Positions 7,160 to 46,325 of a DNA stretch of 64,000 bases are shown in pieces (position 1 is the first letter of the stretch; each line of letters opens with the position of its first letter). The notes under the pieces were generated by a model that was not told the DNA's origin, did no database searches, and saw nothing but the letters and a program-made list of their open reading frames with translations. The translations under genes and the position numbers were made by a program. Source of the DNA: Candidatus Methylomirabilota bacterium (lineage in GTDB: Bacteria > Methylomirabilota > Methylomirabilia > Rokubacteriales > CSP1-6); NCBI GenBank assembly GCA_036002485.1, contig DASYTI010000251.1, positions 1-64,000 of the forward strand. The letters run 5' to 3'.

Positions 7160-7363
7160 TCTAGCGCGAATTATTCACGAACGCATGTACCGCTTCCTGG
7201 CCGCCCTCTTATCTACTCAGCCGTCGCCTCAGGGCTTCGCCCTTCAGCTCGAACTGCGGCCCTCTCCCCCGATGGGGGAGAGGGATAAAAATGAATCCCT
7301 CTCCCTCGGAGAGGGAGAGGGTTGGGTGAGGGTGGCGTTGTCTCGCGAATAATCCAGGCTAGA
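7160..7363. repeat. 204-bp TIR element, copy 2
   Basis: Left end CTAGCG-CGAA-TTATTCACGA and right end (complement) CTAGCC-TGGA-TTATTCGCGA form the terminal inverted repeat. The outer parts match copy 1 in the same orientation while the inner TTCGAGC/CTCTCCC core is reversed. The inner hairpin CCCTCTCCCCC-GAT-GGGGGAGAGGG is shared with 47003-47027. A CTA/TA at both outer edges could be a short target duplication. Confidence 0.7.
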
Positions 7364-7441
7364 TGACGGGAGGCCGTGGTCAACGTCGGCGCCACAGGGT
7401 CTGTGCATCGGGCCGCGCATCAATGATACGATGGCCGATCG

Positions 7442-7858
7442 ATGCCGTCGGTCACCAGCATTCGCGTCCGCTACAAGGACACCGACACCATGTCGGTCGT
7501 CTACTACGGCAACTACCTGACCTACTTCGAGGTCGCCCGGGTCGAGTACCTGCGCGAGCGAGGGCTGCCCATGTCTCAGGTGAACAAGCGCATCCACATG
7601 CCGGTGGTGGAGGCGCTCGTCCGCTATGTCAAGCCGGCCCGGCTCGACGACCTGCTGGAAGTGACATCGCGCGTGGGCGAGCGCAAGCGCGCGAGCTTCA
7701 CGTTCTTCTACGAGATCAAGAACGAGGCGCGTGAGCTCGTGGCCACGGGGCACACGCGCCATGCCTGCTGGGATCCCGCCACGGCCAGGATGATCGCCAT
7801 TCCCGACTGGCTCAAGGAGATCATGCCGGATGCCGACCTCGATCCGATCGATCGCTGA
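7442..7858 (+). CDS. YbgC/FadM-type acyl-CoA thioesterase
   Basis: A 138-residue single hotdog domain. RYKDTDTMSVVYYGNYL (10-26) is the YbgC signature, with Asp15 at the catalytic position. Family members hydrolyse short or hydroxybenzoyl acyl-CoAs in the cytoplasm. Its last 29 bases overlap the start of the formate-THF ligase gene, so translation is probably coupled although no metabolic link is obvious. Unlike many YbgC genes it is not next to tolQ, although a complete tol operon lies 10 kb away. Confidence 0.85.
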   Translation: MPSVTSIRVRYKDTDTMSVVYYGNYLTYFEVARVEYLRERGLPMSQVNKRIHMPVVEALVRYVKPARLDDLLEVTSRVGERKRASFTFFYEIKNEARELVATGHTRHACWDPATARMIAIPDWLKEIMPDADLDPIDR

Positions 7859-9476
7859 CATCGCCCGCGAGCTCGGGCTCGCCGACGAGGAGTGGATGCC
7901 CTATGGCCGCACCAAGGCCAAGGTCTTGCTGTCCGCGTTGCCGGCCCGCCGCGGCCGGCCCGACGGCAAGCTCGTGGTCGTCTCCGCGATCACGCCCACG
8001 CCGGCCGGCGACGGCAAGACCACCATGACCATCGGCCTGGGCCAGGCCCTCTGGCGGATCGGCGCCAAGCCGGTCGTCGCGCTGCGCGAGCCATCCATCG
8101 GCCCGACCCTCGGCATGAAGGGCGGCGGCACGGGCGGGGGGCGCGCGCAGGTCGTGCCCATGGAGGAGATCAATCTCCATTTCACGGGCGACTTCCACGC
8201 CATCACCTCCGCCCACAACCTCCTGGCCGCGGCCCTCGACAATCACCTCCACCACGGCAATGCCCTGGGCATCGACGTGCGCCAGGTGCTGTGGAAGCGC
8301 GTGCTCGACGTCAATGACCGCGCCCTCCGTCAGGTGATCGTGGGGCTGGGCGGCCGCATGGACGGCGTGCCGCGCGAGGCGGGCTTCCTCATCACCTCGG
8401 CCTCGGAGATCATGGCGGCCTTGTGTCTGGCCGAGGACCTTGCCGATCTCCGGACGCGCCTGGGCCGCATGCTCGTCGCCCTCCGGGCCGACGGCTCCGC
8501 CGTGCTGGCGGACGAGCTCAAGGTCACCGGCGCCATGGCCGCCCTCCTGCGGGACGCCGTGCACCCGAACCTCGTGCAGACCATGGAGGGAACGCCCGCC
8601 CTCGTGCACGGCGGGCCGTTCGCCAACATCGCGCACGGCTGCAACTCGGTGGTGGCCACGCGCCTGGCCCTCAAGCTCGGGGACATCTGCCTCACCGAGG
8701 CGGGCTTCGCCACCGATCTCGGGGCGGAGAAGTTCTTCGACATCAAGTGCCGGCTGGCCGGCCTGGTTCCCGACGGCGCCATGATCGTGGCGACGACGCG
8801 CGCGCTCAAGTATCACGGCGGCGTCCCCATAGCGGACCTGGGCAAGGAAAACGTCGAGGCCCTCGCGCGCGGGCTGGACAATCTCGACGCCCATGTCGCC
8901 TCCGTGCGGCAGTTCAAGGTGCCCGTGCTGATCGGGCTCAACCGCTACCCCACCGATACCGACCGCGAACACCAGACAGTGCTGAACTTCTGCCAGCGGC
9001 TCGGCGTCCCCGCCTATGTCGCGGACGTGTTCGGCCGCGGCGGCGAGGGCGGGGAAGACCTGGCCAGAGGCCTGCTCAAGCTCCTGGCCTCCGAGCGCTC
9101 GGCCTTCACGCCGCTCTATCCGCTGGACGCCCCCATCAAGGCCAAGCTCGAGACCATCGCCACGCAGATCTACGGCGCCGACGGCGTCGAATACCCGAAG
9201 AAGGTGGATCGCCAGATCGCCCAGGCCGAAGCGCTGGGCTACGACAAGCTGCCCGTCTGCGTGGCCAAGACGCAGCGGTCGCTCTCCGATGACCCGACGC
9301 TGCTCAACCGGCCCCGGGGCTTCATGATCACGATCAACGACCTGCGGATCTCGGCGGGGGCGGGCTTTCTGGTGGCGCTGGCCGGCGACATCACGACCAT
9401 GCCCGGCCTGCCGCGCAAGCCGAACGCCGAAGGCGTGGACGTCGCGCCCGACGGCAGCATCACGGGCCTCTTCTGA
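7830..9476 (+). CDS. fhs: formate--tetrahydrofolate ligase
   Basis: ATP-dependent ligation of formate to tetrahydrofolate, giving 10-formyl-THF for purines, fMet-tRNA or C1 assimilation. TPTPAGDGKTT (55-65) is the ATP loop. EPSIGPTLGMKGGGTGGG and INLHFTGDFHAI follow as in the family, and the C-terminus has ITTMPGLPRKPNA. At 548 residues it is close to the usual 555-560. The ATG overlaps the thioesterase gene by 29 bases; an internal start would remove conserved N-terminal residues. Confidence 0.95.
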   Translation: MPTSIRSIADIARELGLADEEWMPYGRTKAKVLLSALPARRGRPDGKLVVVSAITPTPAGDGKTTMTIGLGQALWRIGAKPVVALREPSIGPTLGMKGGGTGGGRAQVVPMEEINLHFTGDFHAITSAHNLLAAALDNHLHHGNALGIDVRQVLWKRVLDVNDRALRQVIVGLGGRMDGVPREAGFLITSASEIMAALCLAEDLADLRTRLGRMLVALRADGSAVLADELKVTGAMAALLRDAVHPNLVQTMEGTPALVHGGPFANIAHGCNSVVATRLALKLGDICLTEAGFATDLGAEKFFDIKCRLAGLVPDGAMIVATTRALKYHGGVPIADLGKENVEALARGLDNLDAHVASVRQFKVPVLIGLNRYPTDTDREHQTVLNFCQRLGVPAYVADVFGRGGEGGEDLARGLLKLLASERSAFTPLYPLDAPIKAKLETIATQIYGADGVEYPKKVDRQIAQAEALGYDKLPVCVAKTQRSLSDDPTLLNRPRGFMITINDLRISAGAGFLVALAGDITTMPGLPRKPNAEGVDVAPDGSITGLF

Positions 9477-9482
9477 ACGCTG

Positions 9483-9491
9483 TGCTATACT
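9483..9491 (+). promoter_or_regulatory. extended -10 promoter of the ABC operon (TGCTATACT)
   Basis: TGC-TATACT lies 35 bases before the ATG of the ABC ATPase and 7 bases after the fhs stop. No -35 hexamer is visible at 16-18 bases, as expected for an extended -10 promoter. It is identical to the element at 61043-61051. Confidence 0.55.
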
Positions 9492-9525
9492 TTTCGACGG
9501 TCCGGGAGCGTCGCGGGCCCCGTCT

Positions 9526-10503
9526 ATGATTCAGGTCGACCATCTGACAAAAAGCTATGGGCCGGTCACGGCCATCCAGGACGTCTCCTTCACCGTCGGC
9601 AAGGGCCAGATCGTGGGCTTTCTCGGGCCGAACGGCGCGGGCAAGTCGACCACGATGAGAATCCTCTCATGTTTCATGCCGGCCTCGGGCGGCACGGCCC
9701 AGGTCGCCGGCTTCGACGTCTTCACCCAGTCTCTCGAGGTGCGCCGCCGCATCGGCTATCTCCCGGAGAACGCTCCCCTCTACGCGGACCTGCCCGTCGC
9801 CGCCTACCTCGACTTCGTCGCCGAGGCCAAAGGCGTCGCGCGCGGCGTGCGCCGGGCCAAGGTCGCCGACGTGATGGAGCGCTGCTTCGTCACGGACATG
9901 CAGCACCGGCTCATCGGCAAGCTCTCCAAGGGCTATCGCCAGCGGGTCGGCCTCGCTCAGGCGCTCCTGGGCGACCCCGAGGTCCTGATTCTCGACGAGC
10001 CGACCATCGGCCTCGACCCGCGACAGATCGCCGAGATCCGCGCCCTCATCAAGTCGCTGGGCGGCCAGCACACGGTGATCCTGTCGACGCATATCCTGCC
10101 GGAAGTCTCCATGGTCTGCGACAGCGTCATCATCATCAATCGCGGGCGCATCGTCGCCCAGGGGACGCAGGCGGAGCTGGTGCAGCAGGTCTTTCCCGCC
10201 GCGCGGCTCGAGGTGCAGGTGGTCGGCCCCGCCGAGGCCGTGATCGCCGCCCTCAAGGGGCTGCCTGGAGTCACCGGGGTCGAGGCGCTCGACGCGCGCG
10301 ACGGCGCCGCGCGGTTCCTGATCGAGTCCCCGCGAGAGCGGGACGTGCGCGGCGAGCTGGTCCGCCTGGTGACGGGGCGGGGCTGGGGGCTGCTCGAGCT
10401 GCATCAGACGGGCCTCTCCCTCGAGGAGGTGTTCATCCGCGTCGTCGCCGGGGAGGAGCACGCGCCCCAGATCGAGGAAGCCGTGGTCGAGGAGACACGG
10501 TGA
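9526..10503 (+). CDS. ABC transporter ATP-binding protein, GldA-like
   Basis: A 325-residue ABC ATPase: Walker A GPNGAGKST (34-42), signature LSKGYRQR (133-140), Walker B VLILDEP (153-159) and switch His in ILSTHIL. The extra C-terminal domain of about 90 residues is usual in GldA/NatA-type subunits. It heads an operon with a membrane subunit, a GldG-like protein and a DUF4340 protein, the common non-gliding version of the Gld ABC exporter. The stop TGA overlaps the next ATG by one base. Confidence 0.9.
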   Translation: MIQVDHLTKSYGPVTAIQDVSFTVGKGQIVGFLGPNGAGKSTTMRILSCFMPASGGTAQVAGFDVFTQSLEVRRRIGYLPENAPLYADLPVAAYLDFVAEAKGVARGVRRAKVADVMERCFVTDMQHRLIGKLSKGYRQRVGLAQALLGDPEVLILDEPTIGLDPRQIAEIRALIKSLGGQHTVILSTHILPEVSMVCDSVIIINRGRIVAQGTQAELVQQVFPAARLEVQVVGPAEAVIAALKGLPGVTGVEALDARDGAARFLIESPRERDVRGELVRLVTGRGWGLLELHQTGLSLEEVFIRVVAGEEHAPQIEEAVVEETR

Positions 10504-11274: not shown

Positions 11275-12885
11275 GTGAGCCTGCTCAAGCGCTGGGGCAT
11301 GTCGGCCACCGTGGGATTTCTGCTCGCCGCGGCCGCCCTGGCCCTCTTCGTGCCGTGGCTGATCAGGCTACGCTGGGCTCTCATGATCGCCGCGGGAGTG
11401 CTCTTCATCGCCACCGGCGCCGCGAACTGGCGCGAGGGCGCCTCGTTCCTGGGCCGTCGGGGCACGCGCTATGGCGCGAGCGCGGCTCTCCTGGTCGTGC
11501 TGGCCCTGGGCATCGTGGTCATGGCCAATGCCGTCTCGGTCCGCTACAGCGCACGGTGGGACCTGACCGAGAACAAGCGCCACAGCCTTTCCTCCCAGAC
11601 GGTCAAGATCCTCCAGGGGCTCAAGGCCCCTGTCGAGGTCATCGCCTTCTTCCGATCGGATCAGCCCGGCAAGCGCGTCGCCGAGGACCTGCTGAAGCAA
11701 TACGCCGGAGCCTCCAAGGGCAAGCTCACCTATCGCATGGATGATCCGGACCGGGCGCCGGGACTGGCCAAGCGACTCGGCGTCGAGAGCTATGGCACCC
11801 TGGTGCTCCAGAGCGGCGAGAAGTCCGAGAAGGTGCTCGAGGCCGACGAGGAGCGGCTCACCAATGCCCTCGTCAAGGTCACGCGCTCGGGCAAGCGCGT
11901 CGTCTACATGCTCAAGGGACATGGCGAGCGCGAGACCGGCAATACCGAGCGTCCGGGCATGAGCCGCGCCAAGGACGAGCTGGAGAAGGCCAACTACGAG
12001 CTCAAGGACCTTGTGCTGGCGCGCGATCCCAAGGTCCCCGCCGACGCCTCCGTGGTGATCATCGCGGGGCCGCGCACGGACCTCTTCCCCCAGGAGCTCG
12101 AGGCTCTCGACGCCTATCTCTCCAGGGGGGGCAAGATCTTTTTCATGGCCGATCCGTTCCAGGCCGAGGGGCTCGCCAAGTACCTGACCAAGTACGGGAT
12201 CACCCTCGGCAACGACGTGGTCATCGAGCTCAGCCCCATCGGCCGTCTCTTCGGCGTGGGGCCCGAGGTCCCCGTGATCAACCAGTACGAGCCGCACCCG
12301 ATCACCAAGGACCTGGGCGGCGTGATGACGCTCTTCCCGATCACCCGCTCGGTCCAGCTGTCGAAGGCCCAGGTCAGGGGCGTCGCGCCGCAGGTGCTCG
12401 CGCGGTCGAGCCCGCAGTCCTGGGGCGAGACGGACCGCGTCGCCCTTCAGCGTGGTGAGGTCAAGCCGGATCCCAACGACACGCCGGGTCCCGTCCCCGT
12501 CGCGGCCGTGGTCACCCTCGACGTGCTACCGGGCGCCGCCGCCAAGGGCGAAGGCGCCAAGGACGAAGGCGGCAAGGGCGAGGGCGCCAAGGGCGAGGAC
12601 AAGACGCCGTCCAAGGCGCGCATCGTCGTGGTGGGAACCTCGAACCTCGCCAGCAACCAGTTCCTGGGCGCTCAGGGAAACCGCGATTTCTTCATGAACG
12701 TCGTCTCGTGGCTGGCCGACGAGGCGGACCAGGTCGCGGTGCGGCCCCGGGATGCGCGACAGAACCCCATCTTCATCAGCGAAGCGCAGTCCCAGGCCGT
12801 GCTGTGGCTGTCCCTCCTCGTGCTGCCCGGCGCGGTGATGGTCTGCGGCATCTTCGTCGTCGTGCACCGCCGTCGCCAGAAGTAG
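11275..12885 (+). CDS. GldG-family ABC-associated protein
   Basis: Three hydrophobic segments at the N-terminus (about 8-28, 30-48, 65-88) precede a large extracytoplasmic domain starting SVRYSARWDLTENKRHSLS, which is highly typical of GldG. Later come VIIAGPRTDLFPQELEALD and GGKIFFMADPF, and one C-terminal helix (about 508-528). A Lys/Gly/Glu-rich linker (about 423-440, repeats of KGEGAK) interrupts the domain and looks like slippage expansion. GldG is required for gliding in Bacteroidetes; elsewhere its role is undefined. GTG start, 4 bases after the permease. Confidence 0.85.
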   Translation: MSLLKRWGMSATVGFLLAAAALALFVPWLIRLRWALMIAAGVLFIATGAANWREGASFLGRRGTRYGASAALLVVLALGIVVMANAVSVRYSARWDLTENKRHSLSSQTVKILQGLKAPVEVIAFFRSDQPGKRVAEDLLKQYAGASKGKLTYRMDDPDRAPGLAKRLGVESYGTLVLQSGEKSEKVLEADEERLTNALVKVTRSGKRVVYMLKGHGERETGNTERPGMSRAKDELEKANYELKDLVLARDPKVPADASVVIIAGPRTDLFPQELEALDAYLSRGGKIFFMADPFQAEGLAKYLTKYGITLGNDVVIELSPIGRLFGVGPEVPVINQYEPHPITKDLGGVMTLFPITRSVQLSKAQVRGVAPQVLARSSPQSWGETDRVALQRGEVKPDPNDTPGPVPVAAVVTLDVLPGAAAKGEGAKDEGGKGEGAKGEDKTPSKARIVVVGTSNLASNQFLGAQGNRDFFMNVVSWLADEADQVAVRPRDARQNPIFISEAQSQAVLWLSLLVLPGAVMVCGIFVVVHRRRQK

Positions 12886-39759: not shown

Positions 39760-40674
39760 ATGTTCCAGTCCGTGGAGGATGTCCAGCAGCACTTCAAGAA
39801 CGCCCGCTACATCGCCAACCGGAGAATCTCCACCGTCGTCTTCCTGGCCGAGCGGATGGGGCGGCCGGTTCTCATCGAAGGCCCGGCGGGCGTGGGCAAG
39901 ACGGAGCTGGCCAAGACCCTGGCCGAGATCACCTCCCGACGGCTCATCCGGCTCCAGTGCTACGAGGGACTGGACGAGGGAAAGGCGCTGTATGAGTGGA
40001 AGTACGCCAAGCAGCTCCTGTACACCCAGCTCCTGCGCGAGCGCATCGGCCAGTTGATCGCCGACGCGGACTCGCTGCCCGAAGCCGTGGCCAAGATCTC
40101 GGGCCAGGACGACGCCTTCTTCTCGCATCGCTTCCTCGCCCCGCGGCCGCTCCTGCAGGCCATCGAGTCCGTCGAGCCCGTCGTCCTCCTGGTCGACGAG
40201 ATCGACAAGGCCGAGCCGGAATTCGAGGCGTTCCTGCTGGAAGTCCTCTCGGATTTCCAGGTGTCGGTGCCGGAGCTCGGGACCATCAAGGCGACCAATA
40301 TCCCGCTCGTCGTCCTGACCTCCAACAATGCGAGGGAGCTGTCCGACGGGCTCAAGCGACGGTGCCTCCATCTCTTCATCGATTTTCCGCCGCCCGACGA
40401 AGAATTGGCGATCATCCGCCTCAAAGTTCCCGAGGTCTCGGAGCGCCTCGCCCAGACGGTGGTGGCGGCCGTCCAGCGCATCCGGGGGCTCGAGCTCCGC
40501 AAGGCGCCCTCGGTGTCCGAGAGCCTCGACTGGGCGCGCTCGCTCGTCATCCTCAACGCCGACAGTCTCGATCGAGAGCTGGTCGAGTCCACCCTGACCA
40601 TGCTCGTCAAGCACGAGAAGGATCTCGAGCGTGTCAAGGGCGCGCTCGACAAGGTCCTGGCCGACCTCGACTGA
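39760..40674 (+). CDS. MoxR-family AAA+ ATPase (CoxD-like)
   Basis: A 304-residue AAA+ protein: Walker A GPAGVGKTEL (about 41-50), Walker B VVLLVDEIDKA, sensor-1 VVLTSNNARELSDGL followed by KRRCLHLFIDFP with the arginine finger. It is close to the CoxD-like MoxR branch that works with VWA proteins. The partner VWA protein is two genes on (41496). The ATG follows AGGAG. Such pairs act as chaperones for metal insertion or complex assembly, but the client is not apparent here. Confidence 0.88.
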   Translation: MFQSVEDVQQHFKNARYIANRRISTVVFLAERMGRPVLIEGPAGVGKTELAKTLAEITSRRLIRLQCYEGLDEGKALYEWKYAKQLLYTQLLRERIGQLIADADSLPEAVAKISGQDDAFFSHRFLAPRPLLQAIESVEPVVLLVDEIDKAEPEFEAFLLEVLSDFQVSVPELGTIKATNIPLVVLTSNNARELSDGLKRRCLHLFIDFPPPDEELAIIRLKVPEVSERLAQTVVAAVQRIRGLELRKAPSVSESLDWARSLVILNADSLDRELVESTLTMLVKHEKDLERVKGALDKVLADLD

Positions 40675-40678
40675 GGCC

Positions 40679-41224
40679 ATGAACCTGACCGAGTTCCGCG
40701 AGCTCTGGTTTCCGAGCCCGCGCATCCGCCTGCCCGAGCTCGGGCCGGCGGGCCCCGTGTTCATCGAGGGCGGTCGCTGCATCTCCGCCGCGCTCGGCGA
40801 GTACACCAAGCTGTGGATGGTGGCGGCGGGACGGTGGCACTTCTACTACACGCACTCCGCGCCTCGAGACTTCTTCCGCGCCGTCATGCCGGAGGCCGTG
40901 GCGCATTTGCTTCAGCCGGGCGAGATGACGGTGGAGACGTTCCGCCAGGGGCCGGCCTACAAGGTGGTGCTCGGGCTGCGCTGCGCTGAGGGCCCCGTCC
41001 GGGTGCTCCACCTCGTCGGCGACGTACCGGACGTCGGGCGCGCGGTGGAGCGCGACGAAGAGGCGACGGAGGGCGGTCTTGGCTGGAAGCTCAAGATGAC
41101 GAATATCATCGCCGCGGGCTCATTCCACGGCCTCCTCCGGCTCGAGGACGGACGCCTCTGCCCTATCACCCGCGACGGCAGCGAAGACGTCTTCAAGTCC
41201 TCCTGGGTCACCTTCTCCCGATGA
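40679..41224 (+). CDS. conserved-looking protein between MoxR and VWA genes, function unknown
   Basis: I do not recognise the 181-residue protein. It begins 4 bases after the MoxR stop. No signal or membrane helix is seen; sequence is mixed alpha/beta (FIEGGRCISAALGEYTKLWM, VLHLVGDVPDVGRAVERDEE). Its place inside a MoxR-VWA operon suggests it is a component or client of that machine. Confidence 0.65.
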   Translation: MNLTEFRELWFPSPRIRLPELGPAGPVFIEGGRCISAALGEYTKLWMVAAGRWHFYYTHSAPRDFFRAVMPEAVAHLLQPGEMTVETFRQGPAYKVVLGLRCAEGPVRVLHLVGDVPDVGRAVERDEEATEGGLGWKLKMTNIIAAGSFHGLLRLEDGRLCPITRDGSEDVFKSSWVTFSR

Positions 41225-41495
41225 GCCCGCAATCTGAAGCCCAATGCGCTACCTCATCGGACGGGTCTGGGGATTGCTGTGTGAGGCGCCGCCCGCGGGA
41301 GGAGCCGCAGCCGCAGGCGAGGCGACCAGCAAGACAGCGAGCCGAGCCAACCCTTAACCGAGAGCGGCAGGTGGCGCTCCTCCCGTGCTGGATCACCTTC
41401 CCGTGATGAAACGAGCGATCGTGGCACCACACCACGCGGCCTGGTGGGGGGGTCTGGGGGAGGAGCGGCAGGTGGCGCTCCCCCCCAGAACCTAA
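41225..41495. repeat. 271-bp gap inside MoxR-VWA operon with direct repeats
   Basis: The gap holds two copies of AGCGGCAGGTGGCGCTCC (near 41363 and 41464), about 100 bases apart and each followed by a C-rich run, and a Pro/Arg-codon-like GC-rich stretch. No ORF looks coding. The second copy ends about 20 bases before the VWA start. Confidence 0.5.
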
Positions 41496-42905
41496 ATGGA
41501 CCAAAGGATTTTGGAATTTATCGGCGACCTGAGAAGGGCCGAGCTGCGCATCTCGCCGAGCGAGGCGCTCGACGCGTTGGCCGCCTCCTCGGAAATCGGG
41601 CTCGAGCATCGCGACACCTTCAAGACGGCGCTCGCCACCACGCTCGTCAAGGAATCGCGCGATCTGCCCACCTTCGACCGGATCTTCGATCTCTACTTCC
41701 TCGACCTCGAGGCGCTCGGCACCGGGCTGAAGAAGGCGCTGGGGCCGGAGGACCCCCGCATCCAGGAGATGCTCGACCAGCTCATGGCTCAGGAGAACAT
41801 GGACATGGACGAGCTGACCGAGCTCATGCTGCGCGGCGAGGGCTCGGACATGGAAATGGCCATCCGCGGGCAGGGGCAGGGGACGGGGCTCGAGCGCCTG
41901 ATGTACTTTCTCCAGATCGGCTACTTCTCGCGCAAGATCTACGACAAGTTCGACTGGGCGGCCATCGAGCGCGACCTCTCCCGCATCATGCAGCTCCTCG
42001 AGGCCAAGGGGATGGATCCGGGCATGCTCGCCCGCATCCGCAACTATCTCGACCTCCGGCTGGAGGCCTTCCGCCGGATGATCCGCCAGCACGTGGAGCG
42101 AGAGCTCGAGCGGCGCGCCTACCGCGCGGGGGAGCGCCTCACGCGCGAGGTGCTGACCGACAAGCCCCTCTTCGCCCTCTCCCCCGACGAGATCGCCCAG
42201 ATGAAGGCGGTGGTGGCGCGCCTCGCCCGCAGGATCAAGGACGCCCTCGCCCTCCGGCAGCGGCAGGAGGAGAAGGGACGGCTCGACTCGCGGCGCACGA
42301 TCAGGAAGAGCCTCCAGTACGGCGGGATACCCATGGAAGTGCGCTTCCGGCGCCGGCATCGTGAGAAGCCGAAGCTCATCACCCTCTGCGACGTCTCGGA
42401 CTCCGTGCGCAATGCCTCGCGCTTCATGCTCCAGCTCGTGTGGAGTCTGCAGGAGTGCTTCTCGCGCGTGCGCTCCTATGTCTTCGTCTCCGAGATCGCC
42501 GAGGTGACCCAGGCCTTCAACACCTACCCCGTCGACCACGCCATCGAGTGGGCGCTGAAGTCCTCCTCGGTGGACTACCATTGCCGCTCGGATTTCGGCT
42601 ACGCCTTCAGCCGCTTCGTGCGCACAGAGCTCGAGTCGCTGGACCGGAAGACCACCGTGCTGATCCTGGGAGACGCGCGCAACAACTACAATGATCCGCA
42701 GGCCTGGGCCATCCGGCAGATCCGCGAGCGCGTCAAGGGCGTGATCTGGCTGAATCCGGAAGGTCAATGGGGCTGGGGCATCGGCGACAGCGTGATGCCG
42801 CTGTACTCGCCCTCGTGCGACATCGTCAAGGAATGCCGTACGGTGAGCCAGCTCGTGCAGGTGGTGGATCACCTCGTCCACTCCTGGTGGCGCCGCGGGC
42901 GCTGA
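41496..42905 (+). CDS. VWA-domain protein, CoxE-like
   Basis: A 469-residue protein: N-terminal helical region (MDQRILEFIGDLRRAELRIS, the CoxE-type start), a long charged helical middle and a C-terminal von Willebrand A domain with MIDAS CDVSDSV, a second ligand region SDFGYAFSRF and TVLILGDARNNYN. The partner of MoxR (39760). In carboxydotrophs CoxD/CoxE mature CO dehydrogenase, but no molybdenum hydroxylase is in the window, so the client is elsewhere. ATG chosen at the conserved MDQRI. Confidence 0.88.
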   Translation: MDQRILEFIGDLRRAELRISPSEALDALAASSEIGLEHRDTFKTALATTLVKESRDLPTFDRIFDLYFLDLEALGTGLKKALGPEDPRIQEMLDQLMAQENMDMDELTELMLRGEGSDMEMAIRGQGQGTGLERLMYFLQIGYFSRKIYDKFDWAAIERDLSRIMQLLEAKGMDPGMLARIRNYLDLRLEAFRRMIRQHVERELERRAYRAGERLTREVLTDKPLFALSPDEIAQMKAVVARLARRIKDALALRQRQEEKGRLDSRRTIRKSLQYGGIPMEVRFRRRHREKPKLITLCDVSDSVRNASRFMLQLVWSLQECFSRVRSYVFVSEIAEVTQAFNTYPVDHAIEWALKSSSVDYHCRSDFGYAFSRFVRTELESLDRKTTVLILGDARNNYNDPQAWAIRQIRERVKGVIWLNPEGQWGWGIGDSVMPLYSPSCDIVKECRTVSQLVQVVDHLVHSWWRRGR

Positions 42906-42910
42906 GCCGC

Positions 42911-43564
42911 GTGAAGCGGATGCTCCTCGCCGCCCTCGTGGCCTGCGGCGCCCTGGGGGGGTCAGCCGCCGCCCAGGAGTGCGTGACCATCGAGGACTTC
43001 GCCAAGGGCAAGGTGGGGGAGTTCCCGCCGGACTGGAAGCCGCGCAAGGAATCGGGCCGGCCCGTCTACTCGATCCAGGAAGCGAGCAGCCTCCGTTACC
43101 TGCACGCCCTGGCCAAGGGCATCGGCATTCAGGCGGCCAAGCAATACGAGTGGGATCCCAAGACGTATCCGATTCTCGCGTGGTCGTGGCGTCCCCTCGA
43201 ATTCCCCGCCGGATCGGACGAGCGCCAGTCGAAGACCAATGACAGCGCCGTCTCCGTGTACGCCGTTTTCCCGTACTCGTCCTTCGCCGTGAAGTCCCTC
43301 AAGTACATCTGGAGCGCCGTGGTGCCCGCGGGCACGCGTCTGACCTCGAGCGCCGGGCTGACCCAGGCCCGGATCATCCGGAGCGGGATGCAGGGGAAGG
43401 GCGAGTGGACGGAGGAGCGCGTCAATATCCTCGAGGACTACAAGAAATACTTCGACGAGGCCGAGGTCCCCAAGGCCGCGGGCATCGCTGTCCTCACGGA
43501 TTCCGACGACACCCGGTCGACCGCGCAGGGCGACTACACGAACTTCCGCCTCTGCAAGCCCTGA
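42911..43564 (+). CDS. exported DUF3047 protein
   Basis: A 217-residue protein with signal peptide (KRMLLAALVACGALGGSAAAQ), then a DUF3047-type domain: ILAWSWRPLEFPAGSDE, DSAVSVYAVFP, ILEDYKKYFDEAE and GIAVLTDSDDTRSTAQGDY near the end. Function unknown; the fold is like a carbohydrate-binding sandwich. GTG start 5 bases after the VWA stop, where a signal peptide begins. Confidence 0.78.
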   Translation: MKRMLLAALVACGALGGSAAAQECVTIEDFAKGKVGEFPPDWKPRKESGRPVYSIQEASSLRYLHALAKGIGIQAAKQYEWDPKTYPILAWSWRPLEFPAGSDERQSKTNDSAVSVYAVFPYSSFAVKSLKYIWSAVVPAGTRLTSSAGLTQARIIRSGMQGKGEWTEERVNILEDYKKYFDEAEVPKAAGIAVLTDSDDTRSTAQGDYTNFRLCKP

Positions 43565-43571
43565 GGGAGCC

Positions 43572-44615
43572 GTGACGGAGAGCGGACCCGACCCCTTCGA
43601 GGCGCTCTTCGAGCGCGGCGTCACCGACGGCCTCCCCGTCGTCCCCCCCACCCGGGAGCGGGTCGAGGCCATGGTGGCGGGCTCGGGCCGCGACCCGGGC
43701 GAGCTGATCGCGCTCGTGCCGCCCAATTTCGGGCGAGCCACCGTCGAGAAGATCGCCATCAATGCCGTGATGGCGGGCTGCCGTCCGGACTATCTGCCCG
43801 TGGTGATCGCGGGGGTGGAGGCCATGAGCGAGGACGCCTTCGATCTCCACGGGGTGTCGGCCACGACGAATTTCCACTCGCCGCTCTTCATCGTCAATGG
43901 GCCGGCGCGCGCCGCTCTCGACATCAACTGCGGCCGCGGCGCCTTCGGGCCCGGATGGCGCGCCAACGCGACCATCGGCCGGGCCTTGCGGCTCATCGTC
44001 GCCAATGTGGGCGGCGCCTCGGCCCGGACCATGAGCATGTCGACCATGGCTCACCCCGGCCGCTACACCTACTGCATGGGCGAGAACGAGGAGGAGAGTC
44101 CCTGGGATTCGCTGGCCGTCGAGCACGGCTTCGGCGCCCACGAGAGCACGGTGGCGGCCTTTGCCGCCGAGGCGCCGCACGGGGTCTATGATCATCAGAG
44201 CCGCCGGGCCAAGGATGTGCTGATCACCATCAGCCACTCGCTGGCCGTGATCTCCCACCACCGGTCCACCCACCACGGCGACACCCTCGTCGTGTTTTCC
44301 CCCGAGCACGCGAAGATGATCGCGGGCGAGGGCTGGGGCAAGGCCGAGATGCGGCAGTTCCTGTGGGAGCGCCTGAGAAAGCGGGTGCGCGACCTCATTC
44401 CCGGCGTGGACGGCGGCGAGGGGCTGCCCGCTCACGTGCTCGCCAAGTTCCCGCATCCCGAGACCGACGACACGCTCATCCCGAAGTTCCGCGAGCCCGC
44501 GAATCTGAAATTCTTGGTGGCGGGGGGAACGGCGGGGCGCTTCACCGCGGTGATCCCGGGCTGGACCTTTCCGAAGATGTCGCGGCTCGTCATCAAGGCC
44601 GTCCGGATGCCGTGA
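43572..44615 (+). CDS. probable partner protein of UGSC selenoprotein
   Basis: A 347-residue protein of a family I know only by its repeated occurrence with UGSC proteins. It has TDGLPVVPPT near the start, VMAGCRPDYLPVVIAGVEAM, FIVNGPARAALDINCG, FGPGWRANATIGRA and MGENEEESPWDSL. Two well-placed Cys (AGCRP, INCGRG) and several His could bind a metal. No signal peptide. Biochemical role unknown. The gene is 7 bases after DUF3047 and its TGA overlaps the next GTG by 3 bases. Confidence 0.62.
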   Translation: MTESGPDPFEALFERGVTDGLPVVPPTRERVEAMVAGSGRDPGELIALVPPNFGRATVEKIAINAVMAGCRPDYLPVVIAGVEAMSEDAFDLHGVSATTNFHSPLFIVNGPARAALDINCGRGAFGPGWRANATIGRALRLIVANVGGASARTMSMSTMAHPGRYTYCMGENEEESPWDSLAVEHGFGAHESTVAAFAAEAPHGVYDHQSRRAKDVLITISHSLAVISHHRSTHHGDTLVVFSPEHAKMIAGEGWGKAEMRQFLWERLRKRVRDLIPGVDGGEGLPAHVLAKFPHPETDDTLIPKFREPANLKFLVAGGTAGRFTAVIPGWTFPKMSRLVIKAVRMP

Positions 44616-45580
44616 GGGGGCACGCCCTCGCGCGGCTCGGGTCGGTGGTGGCCGCGCTCGTCTGCGCGGCGCCCGCGGCGGGGGAGACGCTCGGGGACGT
44701 GCTGCGGGCCAGGGGGGCTCGCGTGACCGCCGAAACGGTACCGGACGCGGCGGTCTCCGTCACCAGCTACACGGTCCTTCGCGATCGGCAGGCCTTCGTG
44801 ATTGCCTATTACCGCGAGCAAGGGACGAGCGCGCTCGACCCTCCGCTCTTCCTGGGCCGCCTGGACCGCGTCACGGGCCGCTGGACTCAGGCGGCCATAG
44901 ACGAGCAGGCCATACGTCCCGCGCCCTCGGCCTGCCTGGGCTCGGCGCTGTCCGTTCGGAAGGCGGCGCGCATGCTGCTCATCGAGACTCACGTCAATCC
45001 GTCGGCCGGCTGCACCCTAGTGGTGGCCGAGAGTCTGGCCGTGCGCGATGTCCTTCCCGGCTGGCCCGTGGCCGTCTTCGCCGACGGGCAGGTCGTCTAC
45101 CAGCACAGCCAGCCCCACTTCTCCGCCGTGCACCCGCTCGAGGTCTCCATCTACGACCCGCGCACGCGCAAGCACCAGGCCGTCTATCCGCCCCGCCCGG
45201 CGCCGCCCCTCCGGCTCGAGCACATGCGGAAGCTCCAGACCCTCTACACACCCGACTGGTGCCAGGCACGCAATCACCCATGCGACCTCGAGCGCTTCGA
45301 CGAGCGGGTCGAGGGACCCGTCGAGGTGAGTGACCGAAGCGGCGCTCTGGCTTTCGTGGCTGCCTTCGACAATACCGTGTTCGCGGAGGACGGCGCGCCA
45401 TCCGCGGGGGCGCCGGCCGGGAGGCCGACCGAGGTCCTCTACGTCTTCCGGCGCCTCGCCGGGCCAGGGCCGCCCGAGGTGGGCGAGATCCTGTTCGCCG
45501 AGGCGCGGCGTCGCTTCGGCGGTACCCGGCTCAAGCAATACGTCGAGCCGGCTACCCTCGACCGCATCTTCGGTCCCTGA
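44612..45580 (+). CDS. exported protein of unknown function
   Basis: A 322-residue protein starting at GTG 44612. The signal peptide is residues 2-25 (LARLGSVVAALVCAAPAAGE). The mature part is beta-rich with two Cys-containing segments (SACLGSAL with PSAGCTLV, and WCQARNHPCD), suggesting disulfides in the periplasm. No family recognised. Translationally coupled to the preceding gene (GTGA). Confidence 0.65.
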   Translation: MRGHALARLGSVVAALVCAAPAAGETLGDVLRARGARVTAETVPDAAVSVTSYTVLRDRQAFVIAYYREQGTSALDPPLFLGRLDRVTGRWTQAAIDEQAIRPAPSACLGSALSVRKAARMLLIETHVNPSAGCTLVVAESLAVRDVLPGWPVAVFADGQVVYQHSQPHFSAVHPLEVSIYDPRTRKHQAVYPPRPAPPLRLEHMRKLQTLYTPDWCQARNHPCDLERFDERVEGPVEVSDRSGALAFVAAFDNTVFAEDGAPSAGAPAGRPTEVLYVFRRLAGPGPPEVGEILFAEARRRFGGTRLKQYVEPATLDRIFGP

Positions 45581-45635: not shown

Positions 45636-45770
45636 TTCGAGCTGAGCGGCGGCCTCTGGTCGTCGCGAGGCGAGAGCTGAAATGATCCCGCAGGCTGCAG
45701 TTTGAGTCGAAGGGCGAATCCCTGAGGCGAGAGCTGAGTGGATCAGCGACGAGGCGAGGGCTGAATTAAA
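45636..45770 (+). repeat. multiple core-repeat copies upstream of the UGSC gene
   Basis: Three partial TTCGAGCTGA / GAGGCGA-GGCTGAGTGGATC units in tandem fill the gap between the exported protein and the selenoprotein gene. A TACACT (45598-45603) lies just before them. The last unit ends 28 bases before the ATG. Confidence 0.6.
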
Positions 45771-45797: not shown

Positions 45798-46325
45798 ATG
45801 GCCGCCGAAGAGTTCCTGGATCCCACCGACTCCGTGGCGGTGCCGCGGAAGACCGCGACGCGTCTGCCCAGCCTCGAGGGCAAGGTCATCACCCTGCTCG
45901 ATATCTCGAAGGCCAAGGGCGATCACCTGCTCGACCGCGTCGAGGAGCTCTTGCGCGAGCGCCTCCATCCCAAGGACGTCATCCGGAAGAAGAAGCCGAC
46001 GTTTGCCCGCCCCGCGCCGGAAGATCTGCGGGCCGAGATCCTCAAGCAGAGCGACGCCGTCATCGAGGCTCTCGCCGACTGAGGGTCCTGCACAACGTGC
46101 AGTGTGCACGACGGCGTGTTTTTCGAGGACCACGGGATGCCCACGGCCACGGTGATCTCGACGGAGTTCGCCCGGGCCGCGCGCGCCCAGGCGGGCGCGC
46201 TGGGCGCGGTCGACTACCGGACCATCATGGTGCCGCACCCCATCCAGCCCTTGACCCGGGATGAGGTCAGGGTGCTCGCGGACAAGGCGTTCGACGAGAT
46301 CGTGGCCCGCCTGACCAAGAGCTAG
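45798..46325 (+). CDS. UGSC-family selenoprotein (TGA at 46080-46082 read as Sec)
   Basis: Two ORFs in one frame are separated only by TGA 46080-46082. Read through, the 175-residue protein runs ...VIEALAD-U-GSCTTCSVHDG..., i.e. the U-G-S-C motif that names this (seleno)protein family, and continues through MPTATVISTEFARAA and IMVPHPIQPL to a TAG. The upstream part (EGKVITLLDISKAKGDHLLDRV) is the family's N-terminal strand-helix. The second part has no proper start or ribosome-binding site. Sec95 and Cys98 would form a CxxC-like redox pair in a cytoplasmic protein. A hairpin after the UGA fits a bacterial SECIS. Sec machinery (selA, selB, selC, selD) is not in the window. Confidence 0.88.
46080..46110 (+). 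promoter_or_regulatory. candidate bacterial SECIS element
   Basis: After the UGA, CGUGCA-GUG-UGCACG (46096-46101/46105-46110) forms a 6-bp stem with a GUG triloop about 20 bases downstream. In E. coli fdhF the UGCA-GGUC-UGCA apical stem-loop lies at the same distance. An overlapping hairpin CUGCAC-AAC-GUGCAG (46088-46102) competes with it. Confidence 0.65.

Follow-up and report, generated by a model that had tools for sequence, protein, structure and literature searches.

The window analyzed here, positions 1 to 64,000 of contig DASYTI010000251.1 from a Candidatus Methylomirabilota bacterium of the Rokubacteriales (assembly GCA_036002485.1), contains a gene of the UGSC protein family that is interrupted by one in-frame TGA, and we are nearly certain that this locus encodes a selenoprotein in which the TGA is read as selenocysteine (Sec). 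Its product very probably forms a functional pair with the product of an upstream gene that starts at 43572, and its C-terminal half is probably homologous, judged from sequence profiles, to the Sec domain of the glycine reductase subunit GrdB. The UGSC family itself has been in print since at least 2008, when it ranked among the most frequent selenoprotein families of ocean metagenomes with 255 Sec and 21 Cys sequences (PMC2398784; this paper, PMC13188914 and PMC3091704 are cited throughout from their accessible parts), and a 2026 review counts it among the families with largely uncharacterized functions (PMC13188914). New here are the near-constant, unnamed partner and the link to GrdB; no link between UGSC and glycine reductase was found in the accessible parts of the literature searched, subscription papers being outside the search. 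Given the GrdB link, the partner and the Cys versions that culturable bacteria and archaea carry, the question of function becomes testable in ordinary laboratory organisms.

The UGSC gene and its in-frame TGA

The features of the gene, all in the window, are as follows.
45798..46325, + strand: UGSC-family selenoprotein gene, 175 residues, TGA as Sec95, scores above the family cut-offs
46080..46082, + strand: selenocysteine codon TGA (U of U-G-S-C), kept across related loci
46104..46325, + strand: apparent second open reading frame (ORF), 73 residues, possible GTG start; 3' part of the UGSC gene
46096..46110, + strand: SECIS-like (selenocysteine insertion sequence-like) apical hairpin, stem 46096-46101 with 46105-46110, loop 46102-46104, supported by conservation

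The frame opens with ATG at 45798 and closes with TAG at 46323-46325, and the TGA at 46080-46082 is its sole interruption. If this codon is read as U, a protein of 175 residues with ...ALADUGSCTTCSVHDG... results, which agrees in coordinates and sequence with an earlier note, made from the bare letters, that had placed the TGA at the U of U-G-S-C and had seen the same frame run on with TTCSVHDG. Indeed, the read-through protein scored 162.8 bits against NF041046 (cut-off, 125) and 168.8 bits against PF24696 (cut-off, 25), and the latter match covered residues 6-173 and spanned the TGA. A 33-row alignment of the family is unbroken across the TGA and continues to the protein end, and the U/C-G-S-C motif (U95-G-S-C in the window) is invariant in it at its conserved place. 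The window gene is a real member of an already known family and was correctly spotted from raw sequence. It had also been predicted that automatic annotation would split the gene, and mechanical ORF calling in fact yielded pieces of 94 and 73 residues; the statement that the second piece lacks a start of its own did not hold, since a possible GTG start lies at 46104, inside the hairpin. Such genes are easily lost in annotation, as two ORF pieces in the window and as a 97-residue hypothetical protein on a plasmid of Acidovorax sp. T1, where this is the annotated gene under the UGSC match. The latter plasmid, p2-T1, is an IncP conjugative plasmid, and its UGSC gene (L150, 8712-9167) has an in-frame TGA as well.

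Close homologues that all stop at the codon or have an unrelated residue there, which the earlier note had named as the outcome that would speak against it, were not met in the 65 UGSC loci compared (the window, 34 loci from named genome contigs, of which 27 are from Rokubacteria or Methylomirabilota and the rest from marine and other bacteria, and 30 from other kin genomes). The TGA was kept at the Sec site in all 64 loci that reach the codon; L085 is cut before it. TGA was also found in 26 of 26 UGSC genes of a second set, which is made up of the window and 20 stretches and overlaps in part with the first. A family search of 60 kin genomes gave matches in 45, with up to 12 per genome and six in the window's own genome, and every match, among those listed, had one TGA. 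Rokubacteria kin such as G002 carry several subtypes (UGSCTTC, UGSCSSG, UGSCTSW and others), with TGA in all of the matches listed. Cys homologues at position 95, for which the earlier note had proposed to look, do exist: the Sec site of ten plasmid homologues was occupied by Cys in eight, by Sec in one and by Met in one. The split selenoprotein gene that the note had described is thus borne out by family cut-offs, the constancy of the TGA, Cys homologues and synonymous conservation. The last was seen directly after the TGA, where the synonymous entropy of codons +1 to +13 was 0.24 (13 codons) compared with 0.85 (92 codons) in 26 sequences of the window type, and 0.21 (12 codons) compared with 0.78 (77 codons) in 30 sequences of the second type.

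A SECIS-like hairpin about 20 bases after the UGA, at the place occupied in fdhF, had been proposed as well, and of this proposal position and conservation stood up, whereas folding energy did not. The loop of the putative hairpin (CGTGCA-GTG-TGCACG) starts 20 bases past the last base of the TGA, and the TGCA of its 3' arm lies at positions 26-29 counted from the TGA, which are also its positions in E. coli K-12 fdhF. In a pairing and covariation test with 16 sequences of our choice, seven base pairs and 500 shuffles, 93.8% of the stem cells were standard pairs, and the covariation score of 0.173 (0.048 in shuffles) was reached by 0 of 500; two pairs had changes on both sides, which 99 of 500 shuffles matched, and there were six such cells, which 0 of 500 matched. 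Against the hairpin, its stability did not exceed that of shuffles (z = +0.50; 141 of 200 had a fold as good or better), and for 46080-46120 another pairing was predicted as the best fold. Rfam at gathering scores returned one tRNA in the window and no match at the SECIS. The hairpin is therefore supported, at the sequence level, by conservation rather than by folding energy.

If the TGA were a true stop in this genome, with the gene dead or truncated for want of Sec machinery, one would expect this machinery to be missing, and in fact neither selA, selB nor tRNA-Sec was found over the cut-off in the own assembly (4.45 Mb; 253 contigs; 95.7% complete). The best selB match reached 103.9 bits (cut-off, 242), and the eight best of eleven weak tRNA-Sec matches were ordinary tRNAs, in an ARAGORN check that left out C11 and C241:31707-31798 among the eleven. 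The three genes were also absent together from the UGSC-bearing genomes G003 (78% complete), G025 (81%) and G035, the last of which is rated 100% complete (240 contigs). These absences count against Sec insertion. However, a dead gene is extremely improbable, because the own genome has six UGSC matches, each of those listed having a single TGA at the Sec site of the family, the hairpin is intact in the window gene, and a SelD with an in-frame Sec codon of its own is retained. Two SelD genes (L016 and L017, on C51 and C54) were over the cut-off. One is a Sec form, whose AGU site contains an in-frame TGA; the other is a Cys form that follows a flavoprotein (NADH dehydrogenase-like) domain in a fusion.

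Of the 60 genomes, 51 had tRNA-Sec, 56 selA and 54 selB over the cut-off, the own genome being counted as a miss. In the sister genome G001 (L178), the three missing genes form one cluster (selB, 7209-9089; selA, 9116-10486; selC, 11836-11929), and contig C193 of the own assembly begins, at base 84, with a part that matches L178 at 14187, which is 2.26 kb past the end of selC. Contig C219 matches the far left flank of the sel operon region and runs on without the operon, so that C193 is the only contig on which an explanation by a gap can be based. A match of 141 bases between kin DNA beside selB and contig C84 lacked colinearity and was set aside. The simplest reading of the missing selA, selB and selC would be an assembly gap. 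The earlier note had regarded a genome without Sec machinery as grounds for giving up its reading; this is literally the case for selA, selB and tRNA-Sec, whereas SelD is present, and since kin carry the machinery, a Sec-type SelD is kept and a contig starts about 2.3 kb away, we do not count it as a refutation.

The partner gene

Two further genes of the window bear on the proposed pair.
43572..44615, + strand: partner gene, 347 residues, of a family without a library model; motifs defined in an alignment of 31
44612..45580, + strand: gene of an uncharacterized family between the partner and UGSC genes, an interval type found only in the window and L052 among the 62 partner loci

A homologue of the 43572 gene was present on the same strand in 62 of the 65 UGSC loci, in 60 of them within 136 nucleotides of the UGSC gene. 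The two loci with wider spacing are the window and the near-identical L052, in which about 1.1-1.2 kb and another gene lie between the two. The partner of L051 sits just outside the fetched stretch (it was found in L177), and no partner was seen on the contig of L054 (12.3 kb) or on that of L079 (7.1 kb), which speaks against a pairing. In the second set, the partner was within 3 kb of 26/26 UGSC genes and within 140 nucleotides of 22, and all nine plasmid records with UGSC carried it. Moreover, UGSC and partner are fused in two plasmid-encoded proteins, one of 545 residues in Variovorax boronicumulans and one of 574 residues in Sporomusa termitida, and a fusion of UGSC with a domain named Unknown_1 had already been reported in 2008 (PMC2398784). 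The Sporomusa fusion scored 28.3 bits against PF24696 (cut-off, 25) and gave 20.8 bits with the UGSC profile and 11.2 bits with the GrdB-type profile, each value being for one sequence. Its gene (L156:8281-10005, plasmid pSPTER) is located beside genes for an acyl-CoA (acyl-coenzyme A) dehydrogenase, an electron transfer flavoprotein and aconitase X. The counts and fusions uphold the part of the earlier note that saw a partner in the 43572 gene; nothing was found that pointed to a metal system, to which the note had thought the two might belong. From the same data we infer a physical complex of UGSC and partner.

The motifs DGLPxxPPT, MAGC, NATIGRA and AGGxAG are invariant in the alignment of 31 partner sequences. 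With these 31 members, Pfam gave weak rows at chance level only (best E, 0.0075), and the window copy had no NCBIfam match. Searches of the PDB with the UGSC and partner alignments returned nothing below E 0.3, and fold searches with the partner gave nothing credible (best E by Foldseek, 3.6e-3; best Z by VIA, 5.5).

Probable relationship to GrdB and a candidate reaction

The kin genomes also carry GrdB-type selenoproteins, in which a TGA encodes the U of U-G-T-S/C-x-x-C and GxP follows at a distance of 18 residues. In UGSC, G was found at +18 from Sec in 65 and P at +20 in 69 of 72 sequences. When the 72 UGSC sequences were compared by hhalign, with Sec entered as Cys, with nine GrdB-type sequences of kin, a Prob of 91.8 and a P of 7.5e-7 were obtained; with 28 GrdB-type sequences, the values were 92.1 and 6.2e-7 over 90 columns. 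In the alignment, the Sec residues, the GxP motifs and the HP motifs of the two families coincide, and its scores of 49.0 and 49.7 compare with column-shuffle maxima of 20.6 and 27.6 (200 shuffles each) and with a maximum of 24.7 for 43 control families of neighbor proteins. Against the UGSC profile, the partner gave a P of 0.15, TrxA 0.055 and TrxB 0.26. UGSC also has the UxxCxxC that belongs to the Sec domain of GrdB, the motif being complete in the subtype of the window.

Several points weaken the link. Among the candidate GrdB-type sequences, those with the U..GxP spacing had been kept (9 of 12 loci and then 19 of 22 hits), a choice that favors the match, and a P of 6.2e-7 scaled to a library of Pfam size corresponds to an E of about 0.015. 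The short PrdB-like subset alone gave a P of 0.0014 with UGSC, and PF07355 matched neither the window protein (E up to 0.01) nor any of 33 alignment members (E up to 1). Nor is the partner a relative of GrdE, a candidate that was rejected on the profile of kin GrdE (P, 0.31). Kin loci L142 and L144-L146 encode short selenoproteins with U-x-x-C-x-Q-x-x-G that match only the C-terminal part of PF07355.

As an alternative, UGSC could be a general oxidoreductase for thiols and disulfides that is built on a thioredoxin-like fold, and the partner would then be the protein that serves as its client or donor. Redox motifs of the U-x-x-C kind are common, a fold like that of thioredoxin was assumed for UGSC in 2008 (PMC2398784), and the 2026 review lists UGSC together with proteins of this fold (PMC13188914). 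However, in a confident AlphaFold2 model (pLDDT, 92.4; pTM, 0.87), UGSC is an alpha/beta protein of five strands with a helix between each, and Sec95 lies between strand 87-93 and helix 96-111. In the DSSP assignment, every strand is followed by a helix (E H E H E H E H E H), unlike in the beta-alpha-beta-beta-alpha core of thioredoxin with its antiparallel pair. The predicted fold is not thioredoxin-like, in contradiction to the suggestion of 2008. Neighboring TrxA also fell far behind GrdB in the profile comparison (P, 0.055 versus 6e-7), and up to 12 copies per genome in scattered catabolic settings would fit a substrate enzyme better, which makes a general oxidoreductase quite improbable. 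Fold searches with the UGSC model gave generic alpha/beta matches only, from which no function was read (best VIA Z, 11.3 to a designed protein and 11.2 to 8s7v_H; 220 of 1,000 chains at a Z of at least 8). GrdB and PrdB were absent from the lists of these searches, and a sequence search of the PDB with kin GrdB returned no recognizable relative at E up to 10.

A substrate enzyme could work as follows. UGA 46080 would be decoded as Sec95 with the aid of the SECIS-type hairpin just 3' of it, and the UGSC protein would act together with the 43572 product, which would bind a small organic molecule as substrate and activate it. Sec95, as the selenolate, would then attack the substrate and reductively cut a carbon-heteroatom bond, Cys98 (plus Cys101 in the subtype of the window) would release the product by way of an Se-S bridge, and thioredoxin and thioredoxin reductase would recharge UGSC. 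The multiple UGSC copies of one genome would serve different substrates. As a whole, selenoprotein, partner and bond-cleaving mechanism make up the best explanation we have, and on balance we favor it; bond cleavage taken by itself is a tentative assignment, a little short of an even chance.

A recharging by thioredoxin would be in line with the genes for thioredoxin reductase near Cys versions in three to four of ten plasmid loci: trxB-trxA directly upstream of the pair in Arthrobacter and trxB directly downstream in Roseovarius (L151, L152), trxB two genes from the pair in Variovorax SRS16 (L155), and a more distant TrxB-like protein near the pair in V. boronicumulans (L154). On the other side of the balance, trxB was found in 0 of 55 loci outside plasmids, the second subtype (UGSCSSG) does not keep the third Cys of the motif, and in the Sporomusa fusion the Sec position is taken by Met (MGTS). 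As a guess, UGSC genomes with many copies may share one reductase.

The same thioredoxin reductase neighbors would serve a selenium peroxidase too, and the pair might be a redox or detoxifying system that cleaves no bond. The domain seems capable of such chemistry, since the title of a reference in PMC3091704 ascribes peroxidase activity to GrdB. In contrast, a near-constant partner of 330-350 residues suggests the catabolism of organic substrates, and so do the neighbors (CoA transferases, phosphoenolpyruvate mutase-like proteins, enoyl-CoA hydratases, and TTT and TRAP transporters); a purely redox role is therefore unlikely. On the plasmids, CoA transferases were encoded in L149, L152, L153 and L155, phosphoenolpyruvate mutase-like proteins in L149 and L150, LLM flavin oxidoreductases in L149 and L153, and TTT or TRAP transporters in L149, L150 and L152-L155. 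Clustering of gene neighbors in kin brought together, for the most part, entire orthologous loci and did not single out a pathway that recurs, and therefore no substrate can be named for the proposed reductase. Near two UGSC pairs, a gene for a LigB-type ring-opening dioxygenase subunit was seen (L159, by a LigB match; L176, by clustering).

Gene neighborhood and known systems

Upstream of the partner, the window has a row of genes from 39760 to 43564, made up of an AAA ATPase, an uncharacterized protein, a CoxE-like VWA protein and a DUF3047 protein.
39760..40674, + strand: AAA ATPase gene (AAA_5/AAA matches), upstream block, common to three kin loci
41511..42905, + strand: CoxE-like VWA protein gene, upstream block, common to three kin loci
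42887..43564, + strand: DUF3047 protein gene, upstream position shared by three kin loci from its group

In three kin loci, the UGSC pair is likewise accompanied by the ATPase, VWA and DUF3047 genes. AAA/VWA pairs are activating machines for some metal enzymes. The spacer before the UGSC gene (45640-45770) contains several GAGGCGAGAGCTGA-like near-copies, possibly a dispersed repeat.

Compared with the UGSC family as known (NF041046, PF24696, and the Sec forms of the ocean metagenomes [PMC2398784]), the window protein has the same motif, and the family occurs in the same Sec and Cys forms. Nothing sets the protein outside the family; it falls in the subtype UGSCTTCSVHDG, which is part of a strongly multiplied lineage, and its locus differs by the extra gene between partner and UGSC.

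With GrdB (PF07355), described in the 2026 review as the substrate-binding subunit with UxxCxxC (PMC13188914), UGSC shares this motif, the 18 residues from U to GxP, a later HP and about 90 alignable columns, and each of the 28 GrdB-type sequences from kin that were compared has UGA as its Sec codon. It differs in its length of 175 residues versus about 440, in the missing PF07355 match and in its partner. The subunit PrdB of D-proline reductase (242 residues; Sec152 [PMC3091704]) is likewise small, carries Sec in a UxxC motif and is found beside a larger partner; here, short PrdB-like sequences from kin give a weak profile match, and no PrdA-like partner was identified, the profile comparison of the partner having covered GrdE. 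The electrons for glycine reductase come from NADPH and reach GrdA and GrdB via thioredoxin reductase and thioredoxin (PMC3091704). GrdE is the partner that carries the pyruvoyl group in that system. Since the UGSC partner is unlike kin GrdE, activation of the substrate must differ from that in glycine reductase. We tentatively propose, as a possibility and no firmer than that, that UGSC and its partner represent a new class of Sec-dependent reductase, in which a compact Sec domain of the GrdB type and a non-pyruvoyl substrate-binding subunit from a family not described before, driven by thioredoxin, would open carbon-heteroatom bonds in different substrates, and which would have multiplied in Rokubacteria to as many as about a dozen copies per genome, with Cys versions on plasmids of haloarchaea, actinobacteria and proteobacteria.
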